Source: a virus. Taken from it: DNA of 35,208 nucleotides. The position numbers were made by a program, and so were the translations under genes. This document shows, in pieces, positions 28,257 to 35,208 of the stretch. The stretch covers positions 1 through 35,208 of IMG/VR virus record IMGVR_UViG_3300044730_001448; one strand, written 5' to 3'. The notes beneath the pieces were generated by a model that saw nothing but the letters and a program-made list of their open reading frames with translations, made no database searches and was not told where the DNA came from. Position 1 is the first letter of the stretch. The number at the start of each line of letters is the position of its first letter.

Positions 28257-30206
28257 TTACGACCTCATTAATTTCCCGTTTGAGTAACTTGAGCGATACG
28301 AATTTTTTGTGAAGACAACTCCGGAAATATCCTCCCCAGATGCAATTGTATCTTTTACCATATTTATTTGACTTTTTGAAACATCAAAAGATACATAAAG
28401 ATCTTTAAGACCGATGACATCATTTGATTCTGGATATGCTTGTATTTCTATTAAATCATTCCCTAATTCTGTAGATGTAATTGTAATTGTATTCAGAGTT
28501 ATTTCTCCATTTGCATAATTTACAACTCCAGCAGATTCTACAACTACAAACGGAGATAATGATGCAGTAGATACTCCTGCTGAAGTTTCAATAGGTTTTA
28601 CAATTGAAATTACTCCTGTCACACCATCAGCGTTTGGAGTATCTGTCAAATAAACTATATCCGATTCGTCTTTAATATTGAATCCGGTTGACTTGATATT
28701 ATACCCTGATGAATTTACGTGGAATTGATTACCAAAACATATTTCATATTGAGCTGGGGAATTTATGAGTGCTTTTAAGTCTCTCCTAATTCTAACTCTA
28801 GTAATGTTTGATGTAATTGCAGTATCAGTATTATCAATGACTTGAAGAAGTTTACTATATTTAAATCTGCCACCGAATTTGTTTAAATCTACTGACTGGG
28901 AGTATTTGTTGAGTGAGTTAGTTACTCTTGTTTTTAAATCAGAAACACTTCCAACTTGATTGTAATTGTAGTAAATATAAGATTCAACTTCAACATACAA
29001 TATTTTAAGATCTACTATTTTTGGACGCACCCCAGAAACACTATATTGAGTTAATTTAGATAGTATCTGTTCCTTATCAAAATCAGAAACAAATGTCCCA
29101 TTTTTTGGTTTAATACTAATAGAGACGGTTCCGTATTCTGGAGGACTTAATTCTTCCCCACCAACAACAGAAACAGACTCTGCATTACCATAAATTTTTG
29201 ATTTGATAATTGTTTCATAGTCGCTTGCAGTCACTGCTCTATATTGTGAAGAATATAGGCGAGGTGCAAAATAACGAATAGAATCGATAGTTTCTATATC
29301 AGATCCATTCTGGGCACTTTGATTTGTAGTTACATTAATTGTATTTGTTGCGATAACATTTCTGTCGTCTGCATCTCTAAAAGATCCAGCAAAACTAAAG
29401 GTATCGGCTCCATTTCCATCTTTACCACTGGTTATGATATAATTTGCGGTAATGATTGAAGAATTTTCAAGTTTTTTGCCAAATATCCCATCACCAAAAA
29501 GAATCTGATATTTTTCATCTTGAACTTCTTGAACTAAAAAGATTTCAGAGCTTGAATCAACATCAAAGATATTATCAACTAAAGAATATAAAGAACCAAG
29601 ACCACTGTCACTAACACCTTTGACGTAAACTCTGATCGTAGAAGTATCAATAAAGGGATTATCAAGAACAAATTTTTGATCTAGTGATGCATCAACAGTA
29701 AACTTTTTGGTTAAGAAAGTTCCTTCTCTGATTGTAATATTGCTAAATGTTGCAACTCCATTTACAACAGGAACTGTAACACTTTGGGGAATTGAAAATA
29801 CGTAAGAAGATCCTCTTACAGATCCAGTGCATACAAGACCTGCCTGCAAGGTAATCGCAGACGTATATACTGGGGTGCCGTCTTGTAATATTTGATCTGG
29901 ATCTACGTTTACACTAAATGAAACTACTGCATTAGCAGCATTTCTTGAATATGGAACATAACCAATATTTCTAGCAAGTGAGACAACATTTTCTCTCACA
30001 GTTGCAGAATCCAAAAAGGATTCGTTGACAACCATATTTGAGTTGAATGCAGTAATATATGTGTTATATGCTAACGTATCGATTAAAACAGAAAAGTTAG
30101 ACCCTTCAAAATCAAAGTCCGTAAATGTAGAGTTAGCACGGAGATAATCTTTGATTGAAGTTTTTATCTGATCGAAATCTAGATTTGTAAATTGAGTAAA
30201 AGGCAT
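28257..30206 (-). CDS. 6: Baseplate wedge subunit, gp6-like
   Basis: 649 residues, close to the 660 of T4 gp6. It begins MPFTQFTNLDFDQIKTSIKD, followed by D-F-D-F-E-G-S-N-F-S-V-L-I-D-T-L-A-Y-N-T, then R-N-I-G-Y-V-P-Y-S near 82-90. This is the conserved N-terminal wedge domain. A central Y-Q-I-L-F-G-D-G-I-F-G-K-K-L motif near 232-245 and a C-terminal region also fit. gp6 forms the inner ring of the baseplate together with gp25 and gp53. The ATG follows the gp25 stop by one base and the stop precedes the giant gene by one base, so all are likely co-translated. Confidence 0.95.
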   Translation of the reverse strand: MPFTQFTNLDFDQIKTSIKDYLRANSTFTDFDFEGSNFSVLIDTLAYNTYITAFNSNMVVNESFLDSATVRENVVSLARNIGYVPYSRNAANAVVSFSVNVDPDQILQDGTPVYTSAITLQAGLVCTGSVRGSSYVFSIPQSVTVPVVNGVATFSNITIREGTFLTKKFTVDASLDQKFVLDNPFIDTSTIRVYVKGVSDSGLGSLYSLVDNIFDVDSSSEIFLVQEVQDEKYQILFGDGIFGKKLENSSIITANYIITSGKDGNGADTFSFAGSFRDADDRNVIATNTINVTTNQSAQNGSDIETIDSIRYFAPRLYSSQYRAVTASDYETIIKSKIYGNAESVSVVGGEELSPPEYGTVSISIKPKNGTFVSDFDKEQILSKLTQYSVSGVRPKIVDLKILYVEVESYIYYNYNQVGSVSDLKTRVTNSLNKYSQSVDLNKFGGRFKYSKLLQVIDNTDTAITSNITRVRIRRDLKALINSPAQYEICFGNQFHVNSSGYNIKSTGFNIKDESDIVYLTDTPNADGVTGVISIVKPIETSAGVSTASLSPFVVVESAGVVNYANGEITLNTITITSTELGNDLIEIQAYPESNDVIGLKDLYVSFDVSKSQINMVKDTIASGEDISGVVFTKNSYRSSYSNGKLMRS

Positions 30207-30207
30207 T

Positions 30208-30609
30208 TTATCTTGTTGCCTCTAATATGAATGAAAATTGTTGTGTTGGTACTTCTTGTCCAATAATATCAAAGATTACAGTCACTTCAAACTCATTTGT
30301 ATCTGGACTTGGATTGACTTCAATGTCAACATTATCAACTCTAGGTTCATAGTTAGAAATAGTATTAATAATTTGCTCTCTGATTACAGATGCAGTTGCA
30401 AAATCAACAAAGTCAAATAAACTAGAGCGGACATCGGATCCCAAATTAGGATTAAAAAATCTTTCATTTGGGATCGTCTGAACAAGATTACGAATTGATC
30501 GTATAATTGCATTTTGATTTTTCAAAATTGGCAGATCTTTTGTCACAGGATGTGGATCAAAAGACAGACTAATATCTTTGAATGATCTAGATATTCTAGT
30601 TACTGCCAT
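30208..30609 (-). CDS. 25: Baseplate wedge subunit, gp25-like
   Basis: 133 residues, almost the same length as T4 gp25 (132). The core D-L-P-I-L-K-N-Q-N-A-I-I-R-S-I-R-N-L-V-Q-T near 24-44 and E-R-F-F-N-P-N-L-G-S near 49-58 are diagnostic of the gp25/phage W (lysozyme-like wedge) family. This small protein clamps the wedge to the tail tube hub and is shared by all contractile machines. No catalytic lysozyme role is expected. It heads the baseplate block, with a CATAAATA late-like box 21 bases upstream. Confidence 0.95.
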   Translation of the reverse strand: MAVTRISRSFKDISLSFDPHPVTKDLPILKNQNAIIRSIRNLVQTIPNERFFNPNLGSDVRSSLFDFVDFATASVIREQIINTISNYEPRVDNVDIEVNPSPDTNEFEVTVIFDIIGQEVPTQQFSFILEATR

Positions 30610-30630
30610 TGGATATAAAATTTCTTGGAT

Positions 30631-30638
30631 TATTTATG
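30631..30638 (-). promoter_or_regulatory. Late-promoter-like box upstream of gp25
   Basis: The minus strand reads CATAAATA, one mismatch from the T4-type late box, ending 21 bases before the gp25 ATG. The spacing matches the two perfect boxes at 16552 and 7297, which supports it as the start of the baseplate transcript. Confidence 0.55.
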
Positions 30639-30639
30639 C

Positions 30640-30882
30640 TCATTTCCAAGAAGAACCATATCCAGGTTCAGTTCCATATTCCCAATCATCATAGTCTTCA
30701 TCATTACGAATTTTTTCATGCAATTCTTGTTGTCTTTTTAGGTCATGTTTGGGTGCCAGATCGTGCATAACCTCTTGAATGACTCTTTTTGGTGATACGG
30801 TATCATAATCTGTAATCAGACGAGTAGTGCCCCACATTTCTCTCATATAATTTGAATCACGATCTACTGGTAAGTTTGACAT
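30640..30882 (-). CDS. Conserved hypothetical protein, 80 aa
   Basis: 80 residues, hydrophilic, with a long charged middle (H-D-L-K-R-Q-Q-E-L-H-E-K) and an acidic aromatic tail ending E-P-G-Y-G-S-S-W-K. No enzyme motif or membrane helix is visible. It starts with an AGGAG ribosome binding site five bases upstream, and a stem-loop covers the end of that site. The gene lies between speD and gp25, a spot where small unknown genes occur in cyanomyoviruses. The function is unknown. Confidence 0.7.
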   Translation of the reverse strand: MSNLPVDRDSNYMREMWGTTRLITDYDTVSPKRVIQEVMHDLAPKHDLKRQQELHEKIRNDEDYDDWEYGTEPGYGSSWK

Positions 30883-30889
30883 TGTGCTC

Positions 30890-30910
30890 CTGTTTTAATG
30901 AATAAAACAG
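30890..30910 (-). promoter_or_regulatory. Stem-loop overlapping the ribosome binding site of the 80-aa gene
   Basis: A perfect 8-bp inverted repeat, CTGTTTTA and TAAAACAG on the minus strand, has a five-base loop. Its 3' arm overlaps the first bases of the AGGAG ribosome binding site at 30887-30891. In transcripts that include it, the stem could partly hide the site. In T4, hairpins at ribosome sites of some late genes block translation from early read-through RNA. The parallel is inferred. Confidence 0.55.
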
Positions 30911-30920
30911 AACTTTTATG

Positions 30921-30940
30921 AAGGAGGTTGCTATCTCCTT
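30921..30940 (-). terminator. Stem-loop downstream of speD
   Basis: The minus strand reads AAGGAG, an eight-base loop, then CTCCTT: a perfect 6-bp stem eight bases after the speD stop. No T run follows, so as a Rho-independent terminator it is weak. It could instead protect the speD transcript end. The left arm is itself a perfect Shine-Dalgarno sequence but no gene starts at the right distance. Confidence 0.4.
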
Positions 30941-30948
30941 ATCTTTAT

Positions 30949-31275
30949 TTAACGATATACTTCTCGCAATCTAAAATTATTAGACCCTAGGTATTTTAAG
31001 ATCTCAAGTGCAATTAATTTTGGATTTCCTTCACCACAAGTATAAACATCTACTGCAATAGAACCTTCTTCTGGCCAAGTGTGGCAAGAAACGTGACTTT
31101 CCGCAAGGGCAATGACTACTGTACATCCTTGAGGAATAAAACAATGTGAGAAAATATTTAAAATAGTCATATTAGCACGCTTTATACCTTTCTCCATTGC
31201 TTCCTGGAGAGAAGTTACATCATTAATAAGATCAAATTTTACATCATACACCTCTAGCAGTAGGTGTTTTCCCAT
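30949..31275 (-). CDS. speD: S-adenosylmethionine decarboxylase proenzyme (SpeD)
   Basis: 108 residues from the ATG at 31275. A TTG five codons upstream in the same frame is less likely, since family members start M-G-K/R-H-L-L. The enzyme self-cleaves to make a pyruvoyl group and decarboxylates S-adenosylmethionine for spermidine synthesis. The cleavage site A-E-S-H is intact, with Glu59-Ser60 as the scissile bond. Counterparts of the Thermotoga residues Ser63, His68 and Cys83 are Ser60, His65 and Cys80; Thr52 replaces Ser55. The sequence looks catalytically competent. speD is a known auxiliary metabolic gene of cyanomyoviruses. Here it sits just before the baseplate operon. Polyamines could help charge balance of packaged DNA or host metabolism, which is inference. 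Confidence 0.93.
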   Translation of the reverse strand: MGKHLLLEVYDVKFDLINDVTSLQEAMEKGIKRANMTILNIFSHCFIPQGCTVVIALAESHVSCHTWPEEGSIAVDVYTCGEGNPKLIALEILKYLGSNNFRLREVYR

Positions 31276-31315
31276 CGAAAAGCGTTCCAATTCATTTTTG
31301 GCAGTAAAAATTTAT

Positions 31316-31915
31316 TTATTTGACCCAAAAACCCATTCTTTTATAATCTTCGTCTTTGATAAACCTATATTCCGAGTAATCTTCTTCTATTTTTTGATTC
31401 CAAACTGGAATTGCAACAGAATTTCCATATCGAAAGTCAGGATTTCTGCGAAACTGAACCTCTATTAGTTTTCCTCCGATGAATTCGCAGTTAATCCATT
31501 CATAATCTTTCTTTAGATTTTTTAAAATATCAGGAAATTCAACTCTTTTATTGATTTTTTCCCATTTTGACCACTTGTATAGAGGATTTTTTTCATCACG
31601 AGTACCTAACACCACCAATTCTTGCTTCCCATTATGAAAGTCAACACTCAAATGCTCACCTTCAAAGAGTTCGCACCAAAATTCTGATGGGTGAAAGTCA
31701 TCTGTGTCCTTTTTTATCCATTCTACCCGAGCAAAACGACTCATACCAAGTAAATTAAAGGATGGGCGAACAATATAAAAGTCGGGTTTAGGAACTGTAG
31801 TTCCAGAAGGACCACAAGTATACCCTAAACGCCGACTTAAAAATAGTTTATTATAAACCCAAAGATCTTCAGAATGTATATGATTCCACTCATCATTACA
31901 TTCGAGTAAATACAT
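31316..31915 (-). CDS. Conserved phage protein, possibly ATP-grasp-like
   Basis: 199 residues. The N-terminal half has G-P-S-G-T-T-V-P-K-P-D-F-Y-I-V-R-P near 35-51 and F-W-C-E-L-F-E-G-E-H-L-S-V-D-F near 79-93. The C-terminal half has W-I-N-C-E-F-I-G-G-K-L-I-E-V-Q-F-R-R-N-P near 139-158. The second and third motifs resemble the end of an ATP-grasp fold, where a Glu, Asn or Arg contact metal and ATP, but a complete ATP-binding lobe is not evident at this length. I recall similar proteins of unknown function in cyanomyoviruses. Its ATG overlaps the stop of the 48-residue gene by one base. The functional call is tentative. Confidence 0.65.
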   Translation of the reverse strand: MYLLECNDEWNHIHSEDLWVYNKLFLSRRLGYTCGPSGTTVPKPDFYIVRPSFNLLGMSRFARVEWIKKDTDDFHPSEFWCELFEGEHLSVDFHNGKQELVVLGTRDEKNPLYKWSKWEKINKRVEFPDILKNLKKDYEWINCEFIGGKLIEVQFRRNPDFRYGNSVAIPVWNQKIEEDYSEYRFIKDEDYKRMGFWVK

Positions 31916-32061
31916 TACCTCTTTCCCTGTCCTCTATACTTTTTACGAGCTTTATTACGAGAAGACGCTGAATACTTGGTATTAGACCCACATCCCTGCC
32001 GAGTATTCTTTGGATGAGACTCAATGATTTTGCTACCACTCAAAGATTTTTTAATTGCCAT
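31915..32061 (-). CDS. Conserved tiny basic protein, 48 aa
   Basis: The ATG complement is at 32059-32061 and the stop at 31915-31917. The protein reads M-A-I-K-K-S-L-S-G-S-K-I-I-E and continues with S-H-P-K-N-T-R-Q-G, N-T-K-Y and a C-terminal K-K-Y-R-G-Q-G-K-R. It is strongly basic and without hydrophobic segments. I recognise it as one of the small conserved genes of T4-like cyanophages that are easily missed by gene callers. It could bind nucleic acid or ribosomes; no function is known. It is separated by three bases from the 53-residue gene and shares TAATG with the next. Confidence 0.8.
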   Translation of the reverse strand: MAIKKSLSGSKIIESHPKNTRQGCGSNTKYSASSRNKARKKYRGQGKR

Positions 32062-32064
32062 AAG

Positions 32065-32226
32065 TTATTCTCCAATAATTTCAGTTTCAAGGTCTTCAGG
32101 ACGTGGAGAACCTGTCTGATAAAATTCTACCGACAAGTCCTCCATAATATTGAAATATTCTTCCTCTGTGAGTGAGGAATAAATTTTACGTCCTTTACAT
32201 AGAATGTTGTATGTTTCGTTAGCCAT
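32065..32226 (-). CDS. Conserved small acidic protein, 53 aa
   Basis: 53 residues from the ATG at 32226: M-A-N-E-T-Y-N-I-L-C-K-G-R-K-I-Y, then L-T-E-E-E-Y-F-N-I-M-E-D-L, then Y-Q-T-G-S-P-R-P. The start is chosen because TGAGATG joins it to the glycosyltransferase-like gene stop, and because the frame upstream of this ATG simply overlaps that gene and looks non-coding. Similar short proteins occur in cyanomyoviruses. The function is unknown. Confidence 0.78.
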   Translation of the reverse strand: MANETYNILCKGRKIYSSLTEEEYFNIMEDLSVEFYQTGSPRPEDLETEIIGE

Positions 32227-32227
32227 C

Positions 32228-32986
32228 TCAAATGATTCTTGTTTTTTCGTGACCAACGCGAATGCGAGGATCACACCAAATTTCAAATCCTGCTTCCTTT
32301 GCATCCAAACAGAATGATACATCTTCTCCACACATATCCTGAACCTCACCAGATTCAAAGACTTGCATTTTAGGTGCAAACCAAGGATACTTCATTTCAG
32401 AATGCTCAAAGACTCCATTTTTGATTAGAATCCAACCAAATCCAGCATAGTCAACTGTGAATGGTTTACGACGCTTTGAGATGCTTTCGACTGTCTCATG
32501 ATTCATCACTCCACCATTGTTTCTGAAGTCATCTTCTTCCATCCAATGAGCAACCGAAGTTGTGTGACCATCTTCTGTTGCATACCATCCAGAAGCAATG
32601 TCTTTGTCCATCAGAACCAATTGCCAGAATTTTTCTGAATTGAAAACGATATCAGAGTCAATCCAGAGTTGCCAATCATACTTGAGTTTACCATCCCAAG
32701 GAACTTGATCTGGTCCACGAAGCACGTTTGCACCAAGACACTTGCATCGTGCAAAGTTAACCATTGAAGAATAGTCTTGTGAGATTTGAATACTTGCACC
32801 ACTCTGTACCAAATCAAAACAGAGTTGTACAAAGTTTTTCAGATAGGTATATGAGACTCCTCTACCTGGAAGACAAAAGACAATCGATTTGCCTTTCACC
32901 ATTTCTCTTGCAAGATTATAGTCCCATTCCTCTGTTGGTTTTTGAGTAACGGGCGATTTTGCTTTTACCGTAAATCCTTTAGCCAT
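32228..32986 (-). CDS. Glycosyltransferase-like protein (GT-A type)
   Basis: 252 residues. It contains I-V-F-C-L-P-G-R-G-V-S near 35-45, a D-S-D metal-binding triplet at 110-112 inside W-L/I-D-S-D-I-V-F, and a C-terminal G-E-D-V-S-F-C (220-226) followed by D-P (239-240) and V-G-H (244-246). This order matches the GT-A nucleotide-sugar transferase fold, where D-x-D binds the metal and the G-E-D part holds the catalytic acid. It may modify phage or host glycans, or DNA; none of this can be told from sequence. The gene follows a strong sigma70-type promoter and heads the small-gene operon. Confidence 0.82.
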   Translation of the reverse strand: MAKGFTVKAKSPVTQKPTEEWDYNLAREMVKGKSIVFCLPGRGVSYTYLKNFVQLCFDLVQSGASIQISQDYSSMVNFARCKCLGANVLRGPDQVPWDGKLKYDWQLWIDSDIVFNSEKFWQLVLMDKDIASGWYATEDGHTTSVAHWMEEDDFRNNGGVMNHETVESISKRRKPFTVDYAGFGWILIKNGVFEHSEMKYPWFAPKMQVFESGEVQDMCGEDVSFCLDAKEAGFEIWCDPRIRVGHEKTRII

Positions 32987-33008
32987 AATAGAAAGTAATT
33001 ACTTCAGT

Positions 33009-33037
33009 ATCATACAACATTATGTAGTGCTTGTCAA
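33009..33037 (-). promoter_or_regulatory. Sigma70-type promoter for the glycosyltransferase operon
   Basis: The minus strand reads TTGACA (33037-33032), a 17-base spacer, then TATGAT (33014-33009). This is an exact -35 consensus and a one-mismatch -10 with ideal spacing. It resembles host-polymerase early promoters of T4-like phages. The predicted start is near 33,002, leaving a leader of about 16 bases before the ATG at 32986. The -35 overlaps the stop codon of the AbrB-like gene. Confidence 0.75.
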
Positions 33038-33210
33038 TCAGTCTCTTTTTCAGAAAGAATCACTTCACTTCCATCTAAAGTAAAGCAGATCTCGGTATCT
33101 TCATACCAAGAAAGTTCATTCATAATTTGCTCTGGAATTTTGATGAAGTATTCTCCACTAATTGGATCGACCTCTATGGGTTCAAAAATATCCCCGGATT
33201 TTTTTTTCAT
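33034..33210 (-). CDS. Small AbrB/MazE-like swapped-hairpin protein, 58 aa
   Basis: The ATG complement is at 33208-33210 and the stop at 33034-33036. The protein contains G-E-Y-F-I-K-I-P-E-Q-I-M-N-E-L-S-W-Y-E-D-T-E-I (19-41), then F-T-L-D-G-S-E-V-I-L-S-E. This is the strand, I-P-x-x-(I/L)-x-x-x-L, turn, strand pattern of the SpoVT/AbrB swapped-hairpin fold. Such proteins are DNA-binding dimers, used as transition regulators or antitoxins. No toxin gene is evident next to it. It may be a phage transcription regulator. The fold call rests on pattern, not on a search. Confidence 0.7.
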   Translation of the reverse strand: MKKKSGDIFEPIEVDPISGEYFIKIPEQIMNELSWYEDTEICFTLDGSEVILSEKETD

Positions 33211-33247
33211 TTCTGTTAAACCTTTTTTCGTTTTTATATATCATTTA

Positions 33248-34000
33248 TTAATACTCTACTTTGAATTTCCAAATTTTATGACCTTTTGCTCTTGCGGTAC
33301 AAAGATGATTTCCAATATATTTCCATCCTTGATTTTTTGTTTTCAGTCTTGATTTTACAAGGTGTTCGTTATCCCTTGCCCAATCCATTAAGTTTAAACC
33401 TTCCCATACCTTCCCACTTAGCGTATCTGTAATTTTATAAGTTTCATATTCTTTATTTCTTAAATTCTCACTACGACTACACCATTTCAGATTAGTATAG
33501 TGATTATTTTTATTATTTCTATCAATATGATCTATTTCAGTGTGTCCTTCTGGATTTGGTACAAATACTTCTGCTACTAATTGATGAATACTCTTTCTAA
33601 TTTGTTTTAGATACTTTCCATTCTTATCCCGTATTGAAATGTTAATACATTCATATTGATGTTCCGGATATTTTGGATGACCTCTGTATCCCGGTTTTAG
33701 ATATATCAAACCATATTCATTGATTTTACCATATTGTTCGTTTCTGTCGTATTTTCCAGGTTCTCGATAAGCTTTACCATCCTTCGTAATGTAATATCCA
33801 GAATACTTGGTTTCTTTCATATTTTCTGGAATTTTTATTGAGGGATAATTATAAGTTACTCTTGCTTTTGGTTTGGGAAGAGGAGTTTTCCATTCATCTC
33901 TTGGTTTTTTTACATACTCCCATTTGCCATTTACTTTGATAAACTTTATACCTTGCGTATTAACTTTAATCGTACCTTCTGGATAAATCTTTCTGGGCAT
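33248..34000 (-). CDS. HNH homing endonuclease
   Basis: 250 residues from the ATG at 34000 (MPRKIYPEGTIKV is a usual cyanophage HNH opening; the frame reaches further to a TTG at 34078, but that part lacks family character). The HNH centre lies at about 136-183: S-I-H-Q-L-V-A-E-V-F-V-P-N-P, then E-I-D-H-I-D-R-N-N-K-N-N, then T-N-L-K-W-C-S-R-S-E-N. H139, D157, H158 and N170 are the likely catalytic and metal-binding residues. The C-terminal part (V-W-E-G-L-N-L-M-D-W-A-R, W-K-Y-I-G) looks like a DNA-binding repeat of NUMOD type. Free-standing HNH genes spread by cutting cognate phage genomes. It lies next to the composition break near 34,140. Confidence 0.9.
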   Translation of the reverse strand: MPRKIYPEGTIKVNTQGIKFIKVNGKWEYVKKPRDEWKTPLPKPKARVTYNYPSIKIPENMKETKYSGYYITKDGKAYREPGKYDRNEQYGKINEYGLIYLKPGYRGHPKYPEHQYECINISIRDKNGKYLKQIRKSIHQLVAEVFVPNPEGHTEIDHIDRNNKNNHYTNLKWCSRSENLRNKEYETYKITDTLSGKVWEGLNLMDWARDNEHLVKSRLKTKNQGWKYIGNHLCTARAKGHKIWKFKVEY

Positions 34001-34231
34001 ATTTTTTTGCGGAAAATTTTTTTTATTTGAGGGTATTTTATAATCTATTTTAGTACAATATTTAGAGGTCGAAAGCAAGACTTTGTAGACTTAAGGGACC
34101 CATCGATTTTATATACGGGGGGTTTAACCTTATATCTTATAACACGCCGCCCGGCGCGGCGGGCACCGGATCCAAACCCCTGCCAAACACGAACGAATGA
34201 GACTGCCCCTCACGAATAAACGCAAGGGGGG
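34001..34231. other. Gap across the AT-rich to GC-rich junction
   Basis: This 231-base stretch contains no supported gene. Bases 34001-34143 are AT-rich like the phage DNA and include the HNH leader. From about 34145 the composition changes abruptly. I see no tRNA, integrase, transposase, target-site duplication or long direct repeat. Two GC-rich hairpins, at 34145-34161 and 34227-34242, are listed separately. Confidence 0.6.
34145..34161. repeat. GC-rich inverted repeat at the composition break
   Basis: CGCCGC, five bases, GCGGCG forms a 6-bp stem, with an alternative GCCCG/CGGGC pairing over 34149-34164. It sits exactly at the left edge of the GC-rich block. It could be an intrinsic terminator for the block on the minus strand, but no T run follows. 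Equally it could mark a junction. Confidence 0.5.
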
Positions 34232-34242
34232 TCAGATCCCCC
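34227..34242 (-). terminator. Hairpin with the 103-aa gene stop codon in its loop
   Basis: On the minus strand GGGGG, a six-base loop ATCTGA containing the stop, then CCCCC. The next bases are CTTGCGTTTATTCG, a weak T-rich tail. It could act as a terminator for the small-gene block or hide the stop. Confidence 0.4.
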
Positions 34243-34543
34243 GACGCTCCAGAGCAGCAGCGCGGCGATCGCTGCGGTACTGATCACGGGCACGGATCAT
34301 CACCGCTTCCAGGTCAGCGACCATCACGCGACCCATCCCACCAACGGGATTCAGAGTGACCCCCCGCCCGACGCAACGATCGCCGGCACCCTGCCCCCGA
34401 CCACGCTGTGTCACCGACTCATCCCCATCACCAGGACGCAGGTTGCCAATGGCGGCACCCCGACCACGCTGCCCCGAACGCTGCCAGAGTTCATCAGCAC
34501 GGGGGTTGCGGCGGGGCAGGCGGGTGACGGTGTAGACGGTCAT
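34232..34543 (-). CDS. Arg/Gly-rich small protein of unknown function, 103 aa
   Basis: 103 residues from the ATG at 34543: M-T-V-Y-T-V-T-R-L-P-R-R-N-P-R-A-D-E-L-W. The centre is very rich in Arg, Gly and Gln with two copies of Q-R-G-R-G (25-29, 46-50). The C-terminus (V-M-V-A-D-L-E-A-V-M-I-R-A-R-D-Q-Y-R) is helical and basic. The frame extends further upstream, but that part is Pro/Ser-rich, overlaps another gene and looks like a shadow. The start is placed here because a promoter-leader repeat lies just before it. The codons and composition are GC-rich, unlike the phage genes to the left. The function is unknown; an RNA or DNA-binding role is possible from charge alone. Confidence 0.55.
   Translation of the reverse strand: MTVYTVTRLPRRNPRADELWQRSGQRGRGAAIGNLRPGDGDESVTQRGRGQGAGDRCVGRGVTLNPVGGMGRVMVADLEAVMIRARDQYRSDRRAAALERRGI
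34265..34272. other. HIP1 octamer GCGATCGC
   Basis: The cyanobacterial HIP1 palindrome occurs here, and two further CGATCG cores (near 34378 and 34758) lie in the same GC-rich kilobase. HIP1 is strongly over-represented in many cyanobacterial chromosomes. The AT-rich part to the left has no obvious example in the stretches I read closely. Confidence 0.6.
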
Positions 34544-34555
34544 CGGTTCAGGGGG

Positions 34556-34584
34556 TGTCGGTTGATCTGAAAGAATTTTACCAG
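34556..34584 (-). promoter_or_regulatory. Promoter-leader repeat, copy 1 (degenerate)
   Basis: The minus strand carries an extended -10 TGGTAAAAT followed by a leader ending CAACCGACA, 31 bases between the -10 and the ATG at 34543. It matches copies 2 and 3 at most positions. It begins a few bases after the stop of the 66-residue gene. Confidence 0.6.
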
Positions 34585-34592
34585 ATGGGAGG

Positions 34593-34793
34593 TCACCCCC
34601 ATTGAGTGGACCGCCACCCGCTGATGGGGCAGGCGGCAACGTCGGAGGCGAAGGTCTCAGACCACTGGGCGGCGAGCAGGGTGGCAGGGTGACCAACGGG
34701 GTCAGTGATACGGTTGAACTGACTGCCGTCGTTCTTGTATCCGACCCACACGGTCTGGCGATCGGAGAGGCGGGAGGCGGGGGAGAGGCGCAT
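34593..34793 (-). CDS. Small protein of unknown function, 66 aa
   Basis: 66 residues starting M-R-L-S-P-A-S-R-L-S-D-R-Q-T-V-W-V-G-Y and continuing N-R-I-T-D-P-V-G-H-P-A-T-L-L-A-A-Q-W-S-E. It has a normal residue mix with no low-complexity bias, which is why I prefer this frame to the longer Pro/Ser-rich one across the same DNA. It contains no family motif I recognise. It has its own promoter-leader repeat 27 bases upstream and no clear Shine-Dalgarno site. The stop is followed closely by copy 1 of the repeat. Confidence 0.6.
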   Translation of the reverse strand: MRLSPASRLSDRQTVWVGYKNDGSQFNRITDPVGHPATLLAAQWSETFASDVAACPISGWRSTQWG

Positions 34794-34801
34794 CGGGTGT
34801 C

Positions 34802-34830
34802 TGTCGGTTGACTTGAGAGTATTGTAGCAG
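34802..34830 (-). promoter_or_regulatory. Promoter-leader repeat, copy 2
   Basis: The minus strand has the extended -10 TGCTACAAT (hexamer at 34826-34821) and leader ...CAACCGACA. It is identical to copy 3 over 29 bases plus three flanking bases. The hexamer lies 27 bases before the ATG at 34793. No good -35 is visible, which fits an extended -10 promoter. Confidence 0.65.
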
Positions 34831-34838
34831 GTCGGGGG

Positions 34839-34949
34839 TCACCACCACCAGCCGCCTTTAGGGTTGAATGGCAGTCCCAACGCGACCCACAGCACGGGGA
34901 CACCGATAGCGGCGACCATCCATAGGGCAGCGGCGACGTAGTGATTCAT
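34839..34949 (-). CDS. Tiny membrane protein, 36 aa
   Basis: The ATG complement is at 34947-34949 and the stop at 34839-34841. The protein reads M-N-H-Y-V-A-A-A-L-W-M-V-A-A-I-G-V-P-V-L, then W-V-A-L-G-L-P-F, then N-P-K-G-G-W-W-W. Residues 4-27 form one transmembrane helix and the tail holds three Trp. The length and layout resemble single-pass small proteins. It has its own upstream repeat (copy 3) and follows the HicA-like gene. Function unknown; a possible small toxin or membrane peptide, by form only. Confidence 0.6.
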   Translation of the reverse strand: MNHYVAAALWMVAAIGVPVLWVALGLPFNPKGGWWW

Positions 34950-34957
34950 CAGGGGGG

Positions 34958-34986
34958 TGTCGGTTGACTTGAGAGTATTGTAGCAG
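34958..34986 (-). promoter_or_regulatory. Promoter-leader repeat, copy 3
   Basis: Same sequence as copy 2, with -10 hexamer at 34982-34977 and 27 bases to the ATG at 34949. It begins directly after the HicA-like stop codon (TGA at 34990-34988), so gene end and promoter abut. Confidence 0.65.
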
Positions 34987-34987
34987 G

Positions 34988-35206
34988 TCAGGCATCCCGT
35001 GCTGCTAGGAGCAGGGCGTGAAACTTGTGAAATTCGTGGGTCATTCCAGGCGATAGGGTCGGGCGTCCCTTGCTTCCGTGAGTCGGCAGGTGGAAGGTCT
35101 GGGAAACTGCTGGGTGGGTCACCTTGTCGTGACTGCCGCCGGGTTTGATGGTGGCGCCTGCCTTGAGAATCAGGCGGCGTGCTTCACGGACCTTGATAGG
35201 GGTCAT
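34988..35206 (-). CDS. HicA-like toxin (mRNA interferase)
   Basis: 72 residues. It has the HicA pattern of an N-terminal helix (R-E-A-R-R-L-I-L-K-A-G), then I-K-P-G-G-S-H-D-K-V, where G-S-H carries the catalytic His of the double-stranded RNA-binding-like fold, then a short strand and a C-terminal helix (M-T-H-E-F-H-K-F-H-A). HicA cleaves mRNA and is usually paired with HicB. A HicB partner could lie beyond the window edge or may be absent, since downstream there is only a 36-residue membrane protein. The start is two bases from the window end, so an upstream start cannot be ruled out. The assignment is by pattern and moderately sure. Confidence 0.65.
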   Translation of the reverse strand: MTPIKVREARRLILKAGATIKPGGSHDKVTHPAVSQTFHLPTHGSKGRPTLSPGMTHEFHKFHALLLAARDA

Positions 35207-35208
35207 CG

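Follow-up and report, generated by a model that had tools for sequence, protein, structure and literature searches.

The DNA analyzed here, called the window below, is the entire 35,208-nucleotide (nt) IMG/VR virus record IMGVR_UViG_3300044730_001448, and our subject is a block rich in guanine plus cytosine (GC) at its right end, inside which the record stops. Positions 869 to 33,240 are collinear with positions 126,956 to 93,281 of S-SRM01 (NC_070963; Serangoonvirus, Kyanoviridae), a phage of Synechococcus originating from a reservoir in Singapore, at 78 to 88% identity in the main blocks, which identifies the source, as judged from this match, as an S-SRM01-like cyanomyovirus (Kyanoviridae). 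The block carries four minus-strand genes that encode proteins of 72 (HicA-like), 36, 66, and 103 amino acids (aa). GC content in 500-nt windows is mostly 31 to 39% immediately to the left of ∼34.0 kilobases (kb) and 56 to 65% beyond. The original prediction, made from the letters of the DNA, had described an abrupt switch from DNA rich in adenine plus thymine (AT) to GC-rich DNA, and this was borne out: the maximum-likelihood single change point falls at 34,142, with 34.4% GC to its left (30,001 to 34,142) and 63.4% to its right. The log-likelihood gain at this point is 146, compared to 13 for the best change point within positions 1 to 34,000.

The same junction recurs in other contigs. IMG/VR contig L005 (4,835 nt) matches window positions 32,681 to 35,208 at 99.96% identity over 2,528 nt and extends 2.3 kb further, and over 2,434 nt this extension shows complete identity to the end of a 21.7-kb contig. 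The GC-rich stretch is thus shared by a close phage relative, a finding that the original prediction had named as one that would refute foreign origin. Relatives were fetched from IMG/VR with one exact scan using the block repeat and two protein-guided scans. GC reached at least 50% past the change point in 56 of the 58 loci that held an anchor gene followed by 800 nt or more (several being near-identical copies, and S-SRM01 being set aside), and after near-copies were merged, 37 of 38 distinct boundary versions contained 500 nt at 58% GC or more beside the same anchors. The same island also lies inside records of 188, 211, 236, and 234 kb. The loci from the island-based scans had been found with island sequences, which in part accounts for their high island rate. 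As a control, we therefore searched with the flank gene only (the homologue of S-SRM01 gp186), taking the best 80 of 599 relatives, some of which overlap the earlier set. Once 27 of these 80 contigs with less than 1 kb on the island side had been set aside, 53 were usable: the 500-nt GC reached 55% in 38 and 58% in 32, and 7 stayed below 50%. We conclude that the composition switch is real and not an assembly error and that the GC-rich island is common among relatives, not universal.

Among the same best 80 of 599 relatives, contig ends within 1 kb of gp186 were found on the island side in 27 and on the opposite side in 6. This clustering fits assembly breaks caused by repeats and may explain why the window ends where it does; such islands are probably under-assembled in metagenomes.

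The island is ∼2 to 3 kb long at 55 to 65% GC and consists of a chain of tiny genes on a single strand. It sits between the AbrB-like and gp186 genes (baseplate side) and a DUF6267 gene (far side), upstream of the baseplate wedge genes; in window relatives, a compact island of 60% GC is followed by DUF6267 (L005, 3366 to 4262). In most of the loci compared, no other gene lies between the boundary and the AbrB-like gene, our label, given by resemblance, for the gene of the 58-aa gp185 homologue. S-SRM01 shares the structural gene block, the anchors, and the boundary element with the window phage and has DUF6267 on the far side as the relatives do, but it differs in carrying ∼11.6 kb of small genes, mostly at 35 to 48% GC in 1-kb windows, between DUF6267 and the AbrB-like gene. 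The GC-rich island is a feature of the relatives and not of the isolate S-SRM01.

The change point lies ∼120 nt from the AbrB-like start in most AbrB-anchored loci and ∼920 nt from it in 4 of 52 (L005, L002, L031, and L084); the window itself also switches at ∼920 nt, with an HNH endonuclease gene inserted in between. The window, L005, L002, and L084 all have this gene next to the island, the L031 insert has a short HNH match, and most AbrB-anchored loci lack it. Because the insert occurs in only 4 of 52 loci, the HNH gene is an addition at the edge and not the cause of the island; the neighboring HNH gene mentioned in the original prediction is a feature of the window and of few relatives. 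In S-SRM01 (L093, 42379 to 44041), the photosystem II D1 gene is annotated in two pieces that flank a homing endonuclease gene.

At the edge of the island, the GC transition spans ∼60 to 120 nt in the six loci profiled. The order there is a conserved AT-side element (TTTCGTAACACTTTGTAGGTTAGGG and variants), a GC-rich palindrome in many loci, and then CACGAACG motifs. The boundary element (also L079, 23084 to 23240) falls into two sequence classes, of the CGTAACACTTTGTAG and GGGTCGTTTATAG types; it is present in S-SRM01 as well, there without a GC-rich island, and it may harbor promoters for the AbrB/baseplate side. We rejected a known structured RNA at the boundary, where Rfam gave no match up to an expectation value (E) of 1, and integration linked to a transfer RNA (tRNA) gene, since scans of the window and of 13 loci found no tRNA gene. 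The features of the right end of the window are collected in Table 1.

Table 1. Features at the right end of the window, in order of position
Feature	Position	Strand	Basis or remark
Left anchor gene, S-SRM01 gp186 homologue, AT-rich flank	32228..32986	-	tblastn in relatives; S-SRM01 collinearity
58-aa protein, S-SRM01 gp185 homologue ("DNA-binding domain")	33034..33210	-	phrog_661; no Pfam match
HNH endonuclease gene, outside the island, between AbrB-like gene and boundary	33248..34078	-	PF13392, E 4.7e-8
Conserved boundary element, AT side	34077..34121		73 to 82% identity in relatives, whether or not they have HNH
Composition change point (34% to 63% GC)	34142		Maximum-likelihood fit
GC-rich palindrome-like sequence at edge	34145..34164		Read by eye; sequence varies, many relatives have one
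CACGAACG boundary motif	34188..34195		Also at the edge in 5 related records scanned
Terminator-like hairpin overlapping the stop of the 103-aa gene	34226..34242	-	Consensus scan; regional site count within shuffle range
Tiny gene 4, 103 aa	34232..34543	-	No family match; homologues in 14 of 61 sequences (cluster 24)
-10-like TAAAAT (extended, TGGTAAAAT) before gene 4	34575..34580	-	Sequence
Tiny gene 3, 66 aa	34593..34793	-	Homologue in 60 of 61 sequences compared, a count that partly reflects how loci were found
Island promoter repeat TGCTACAATACTCTCA before gene 3	34814..34829	-	Repeat comparison
Tiny gene 2, 36 aa, hydrophobic	34839..34949	-	Homologues in 10 of 61 sequences; pN/pS 0.50
Island promoter repeat TGCTACAATACTCTCA before gene 2	34970..34985	-	Repeat comparison
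Tiny gene 1, 72 aa, HicA-like fold, phrog_18430 "toxin"	34988..35206	-	PHROGs, predicted fold; pN/pS 0.21

The tiny genes are real and under purifying selection. With at most 15 sequences per family, and start trimming for the HicA-like and 66-aa families only, the median ratio of nonsynonymous to synonymous difference (pN/pS) of the true sense-frame families ran from 0.21 (HicA-like) to 0.71 (66 aa). Clusters of antisense open reading frames (ORFs) over the HicA-like and 66-aa genes (clusters 5, 7, 11, and 14) gave 0.89 to 2.4. Over DUF6267, antisense clusters 6, 9, and 18 gave 0.42, 1.02, and 0.32, and a sense-strand cluster in another frame inside that gene (cluster 8) gave 1.13; the contrast between sense and antisense is seen for the island genes and fails for DUF6267. 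A Pfam scan of 14 families matched only the HicA-like protein (below cut-off), DUF6267, and DUF7249, and NCBIfam matched none of 10 proteins. The 66-aa protein has a poor predicted fold (predicted local distance difference test [pLDDT] score of 63). Some islands (L056, L054, L059, L062, and L012) hold a ∼250-aa family (cluster 33, 11 contigs) that is nuclease-like by eye only, its single scanned member having no match in Pfam or PHROGs.

Of these proteins, the 72-aa one resembles the toxin HicA. Its score against PF07927 (HicA) is 21.9 bits relative to a gathering threshold of 27, and 19 of 24 members of the family match PF07927 at an E of 0.01 or less. In an alignment of 24 versions, G23, H26, and the KVTHP stretch are invariant. 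The predicted model (pLDDT 93) runs helix, three strands, helix, and its three best matches in the PDB are all HicA chains (probability 0.97 to 1.00; template modeling [TM] score 0.58 to 0.77, the two best 0.65 to 0.77). An alpha-beta-beta-beta-alpha fold with a conserved His, which we take to define HicA, is thus predicted for the island protein too, with His-26 as the conserved residue. When PDB sequences were searched with the HicA alignment, a single weak match (E 0.31) came up, which we did not believe. We regard the 72-aa protein as HicA-like, not as a proven toxin. Among named phages, 18 records (of the S-RIM8, KBS-M-1A, and S-RIM50 kind) carry relatives at 55% identity; in marine S-RIM8 (L080, 14983 to 15213), the HicA-like gene ("toxin") lies among small genes upstream of the baseplate genes, at 35 to 47% GC.

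The description of the block as tiny genes with individual promoters also agreed with our data, as all three of its four genes whose upstream regions lie inside the window follow the pattern TGnTAnAAT, within a 46-nt repeat common to the three regions. Each gene's stop in the window island sits near the promoter-like element of the next gene. A search of ten whole records for TGCTACAATACTNTCA returned 16 exact copies from 7 of the 8 IMG/VR records, all of them in islands and on the gene strand, with no exact copy in G005, S-SRM01, or S-RIM8; a reversed-pattern control gave 0 to 1 per strand at up to two mismatches. In nine families with trusted starts, a -10-like hexamer (score of at least 5) preceded the gene in 107 of 143 distinct upstreams, compared to 12.0% in single-base and 10.4% in dinucleotide shuffles. 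The remaining families, whose starts are untrusted, had such an element in 25 of 68 upstreams (23% in shuffles), and all families with automatic starts had it in 132 of 211 (15.6% in shuffles), DUF6267 with its internal starts contributing 3 of 25. The automatic start picks were wrong for DUF6267, phrog554, p68, p58, p66b, and p260 and doubtful for p36, p58b, and p52. The leader is C/A-rich in a position profile of 79 aligned upstreams, some of which stem from mis-picked starts. Across 150 start regions, the mean folding energy was -7.6 kcal/mol compared to -9.2 kcal/mol for single-base shuffles, and Shine-Dalgarno-like words were at chance (7 of 150 regions versus 6.3).

The difference in composition between island and flank is old. 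GC at third codon positions (GC3) was 0.69 (0.62 to 0.76) in the HicA-like gene and 0.34 (0.26 to 0.42) in gp186 across 27 distinct contigs, and 0.75 (0.52 to 0.84) in the 66-aa gene versus 0.36 in gp186 across 25 contigs; 11 long left-flank ORFs of the window have a GC3 of 0.18. The mean synonymous difference (pS) in the same comparisons was 0.55 (HicA-like) and 0.53 (66 aa) for the island genes versus 0.63 and 0.68 for the flank gene, which is near saturation. Since a GC3 of ∼0.7 against 0.34 has been kept through near-saturated synonymous sites, recent capture is unlikely. High-GC genes imported by cyanophages are expected, in the portion of the source on which we draw (PMC3037559), to drift to the phage's lower GC. 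An old capture left to the phage's mutation bias should by now have reached the GC of the flank, so something maintains the composition, whether selection acting at the locus or recurrent exchange with a GC-rich pool.

The reading we prefer, and consider reasonably probable, takes the old phage island, whose left end the GC-rich block forms, to be an early host-takeover cassette held at host-like composition, with its early timing inferred from the sequence. "Host-like" here rests on the published average GC of freshwater picocyanobacteria, given as ∼64% for cluster 5 and ∼52 to 53% for the Synechococcus lacustris group in the part of the source concerned (PMC9361551). Shortly after the DNA enters, unmodified host RNA polymerase (SigA) would transcribe each unit of the island, and its mRNAs would be translated with the host tRNA pool before the AT-rich programme of the phage begins. 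Such reliance on host polymerase and tRNAs would keep the island genes near the GC of freshwater picocyanobacteria, and the HicA-like protein would be one effector, RNA-binding or RNA-cleaving, that acts on host mRNA. A partial parallel comes from Ma-LMM01, for which the pertinent passages of one report (PMC5780444) describe early genes as 10 ORFs that lack database homologues, lie within a single 5.8-kb window, and have SigA-type promoters upstream. We claim likeness and not homology, and expression timing was measured in Ma-LMM01, whereas the island is known from its DNA. In a 14-phage study, the section relevant here states that synonymous codon composition differs between early and late genes in half of the phages (PMC5683454). 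We suggest, more tentatively, that a lytic T4-like phage might keep two codon and composition regimes by selection, an early cassette at a GC3 of ∼0.7 and structural genes at 0.2 to 0.35, separated by a ∼100-nt edge, because the early genes need untouched host RNA polymerase and the host tRNA pool.

Several observations weigh against an early cassette maintained by selection. S-SRM01 has the same boundary but no more than a slight rise in GC (52% in its best 500 nt) and no exact promoter repeat, and 15 of the 53 flank-sampled contigs lack a 55% stretch; high GC is therefore not obligatory. In 37-kb stretches around DUF6267 of the marine phages S-SM2 and S-SKS1, no 1-kb window exceeds 45% GC. 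With respect to expression, the position profile of aligned island upstreams shows no -35 consensus, the promoter pattern at up to two mismatches is found elsewhere in the genomes too, records G002 and G003 had been retrieved using the promoter repeat itself, and the lack of tRNA genes in the window and the 13 loci leaves a separate phage tRNA pool undocumented. The candidate effector differs from HicA toxins in its Pfam score below the cut-off and in that no adjacent HicB was seen; there was no HicB match among the 14 island families scanned with Pfam (a subset of the ORFs), and no PDB structure match of the model had an E-value below 0.001. Finally, distances in flank and island genes correlate weakly (Spearman 0.14 to 0.29; permutation p 0.005 to 0.09), so this comparison does not decide between selection in place and repeated exchange with a GC-rich pool.

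Repeated exchange is the strongest of the competing explanations, even if we consider it unlikely. On this account, the locus is a hot spot at which cyanophages swap small GC-rich units, GC staying high through repeated supply from a GC-rich pool and not through selection in place; homing endonucleases, and the repeated promoters as homology, would perhaps help the exchange. It is consistent with the weak correlation just described, with a boundary that stays fixed while gene content varies among relatives, with similar promoter repeats every few hundred bases, and with the edge insert (HNH in the window) seen in a few AbrB-anchored loci. However, pairs with close flanks (pS below 0.1; 5 and 4 pairs) have an island pS of 0.00, although these may be near-identical strains, and no GC-rich donor was found: the 66-aa protein matched none of 50,697 phage records, and the HicA-like protein has relatives only in the marine S-RIM8-type phages. 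That the island is instead primarily a structural or replication region, such as an origin or packaging site, with functional GC-rich palindromes and small genes riding along, would account for the conserved boundary element with its palindromes and CACGAACG motifs. We consider this improbable, as GC-richness tracks coding genes for 2 to 3 kb, their proteins are under purifying selection, and the boundary element itself is only ∼100 nt long.

Slightly less probable still is a recent capture of cyanobacterial or plasmid DNA beside an HNH gene. Host-like GC, an abrupt edge, and the HNH gene at that edge speak for it, as does the window's own block. The HIP1 octamer (34,265 to 34,272) and three CGATCG cores (34,266, 34,377, and 34,759) that the original prediction had listed are present, and both motifs exceed the expectation from base composition in these 1,064 nt (0.04 and 0.35 expected). 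Across 34 distinct islands (82,220 nt), a set that includes a near-identical twin of the window, CGATCG is mildly high (35 versus 21.3 expected) but HIP1 is at expectation (2 versus 1.4). HIP1 therefore does not mark the islands as cyanobacterial DNA, and we rejected it as a marker. Recent capture also predicts absence from related phages, which is contradicted by an island common to deeply diverged ones. The HicA-like and 66-aa proteins have no close relative in 84,980 bacterial and archaeal genomes (single-protein scans sensitive to close relatives only), the plasmid set contained nothing that matched the block, and a phage blastn search with the block gave a single 36-nt match (E 0.3). The proposal of captured cyanobacterial or mobile DNA was accordingly abandoned as a recent event; what it retains is the mobile cassette exchanged between phages, discussed above. 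An assembly chimera at 34,143, originally held to be the simplest explanation, has a negligible probability: assemblers do struggle here, as the clustered contig ends indicate, but the junction in L005, the same boundary element and switch beside the same anchors in dozens of contigs, many of them diverged, and the records of 188 to 236 kb rule it out.

Hypervariable inserts are known in cyanomyoviruses, among them the "ORFanage" of S-PM2, as recounted in part of PMC2984593. The g15-g18 hyperplastic region treated in the same part of that source resembles the island in being a variable insert between conserved structural genes, but it occupies another place, the island lying between DUF6267 and AbrB-like/gp186, and no host metabolic gene was present among the 14 island families scanned. 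In our searches, which covered open-access papers, we found no description of such a GC-rich island, and the matching passages of the S-SRM01 paper (PMC8557907) do not remark on one.

The persistence of a block with nearly double the GC of the AT-rich genes beside it, across deeply diverged phages, has consequences beyond this record. Blocks of odd GC are easily taken for recent imports or chimeras, and our findings warn against discarding such junctions. They make it testable whether selection linked to infection timing can hold a set of phage genes at host composition, and they provide a short set of cyanomyovirus genes that are candidates for host takeover, the one for the HicA-like protein included.

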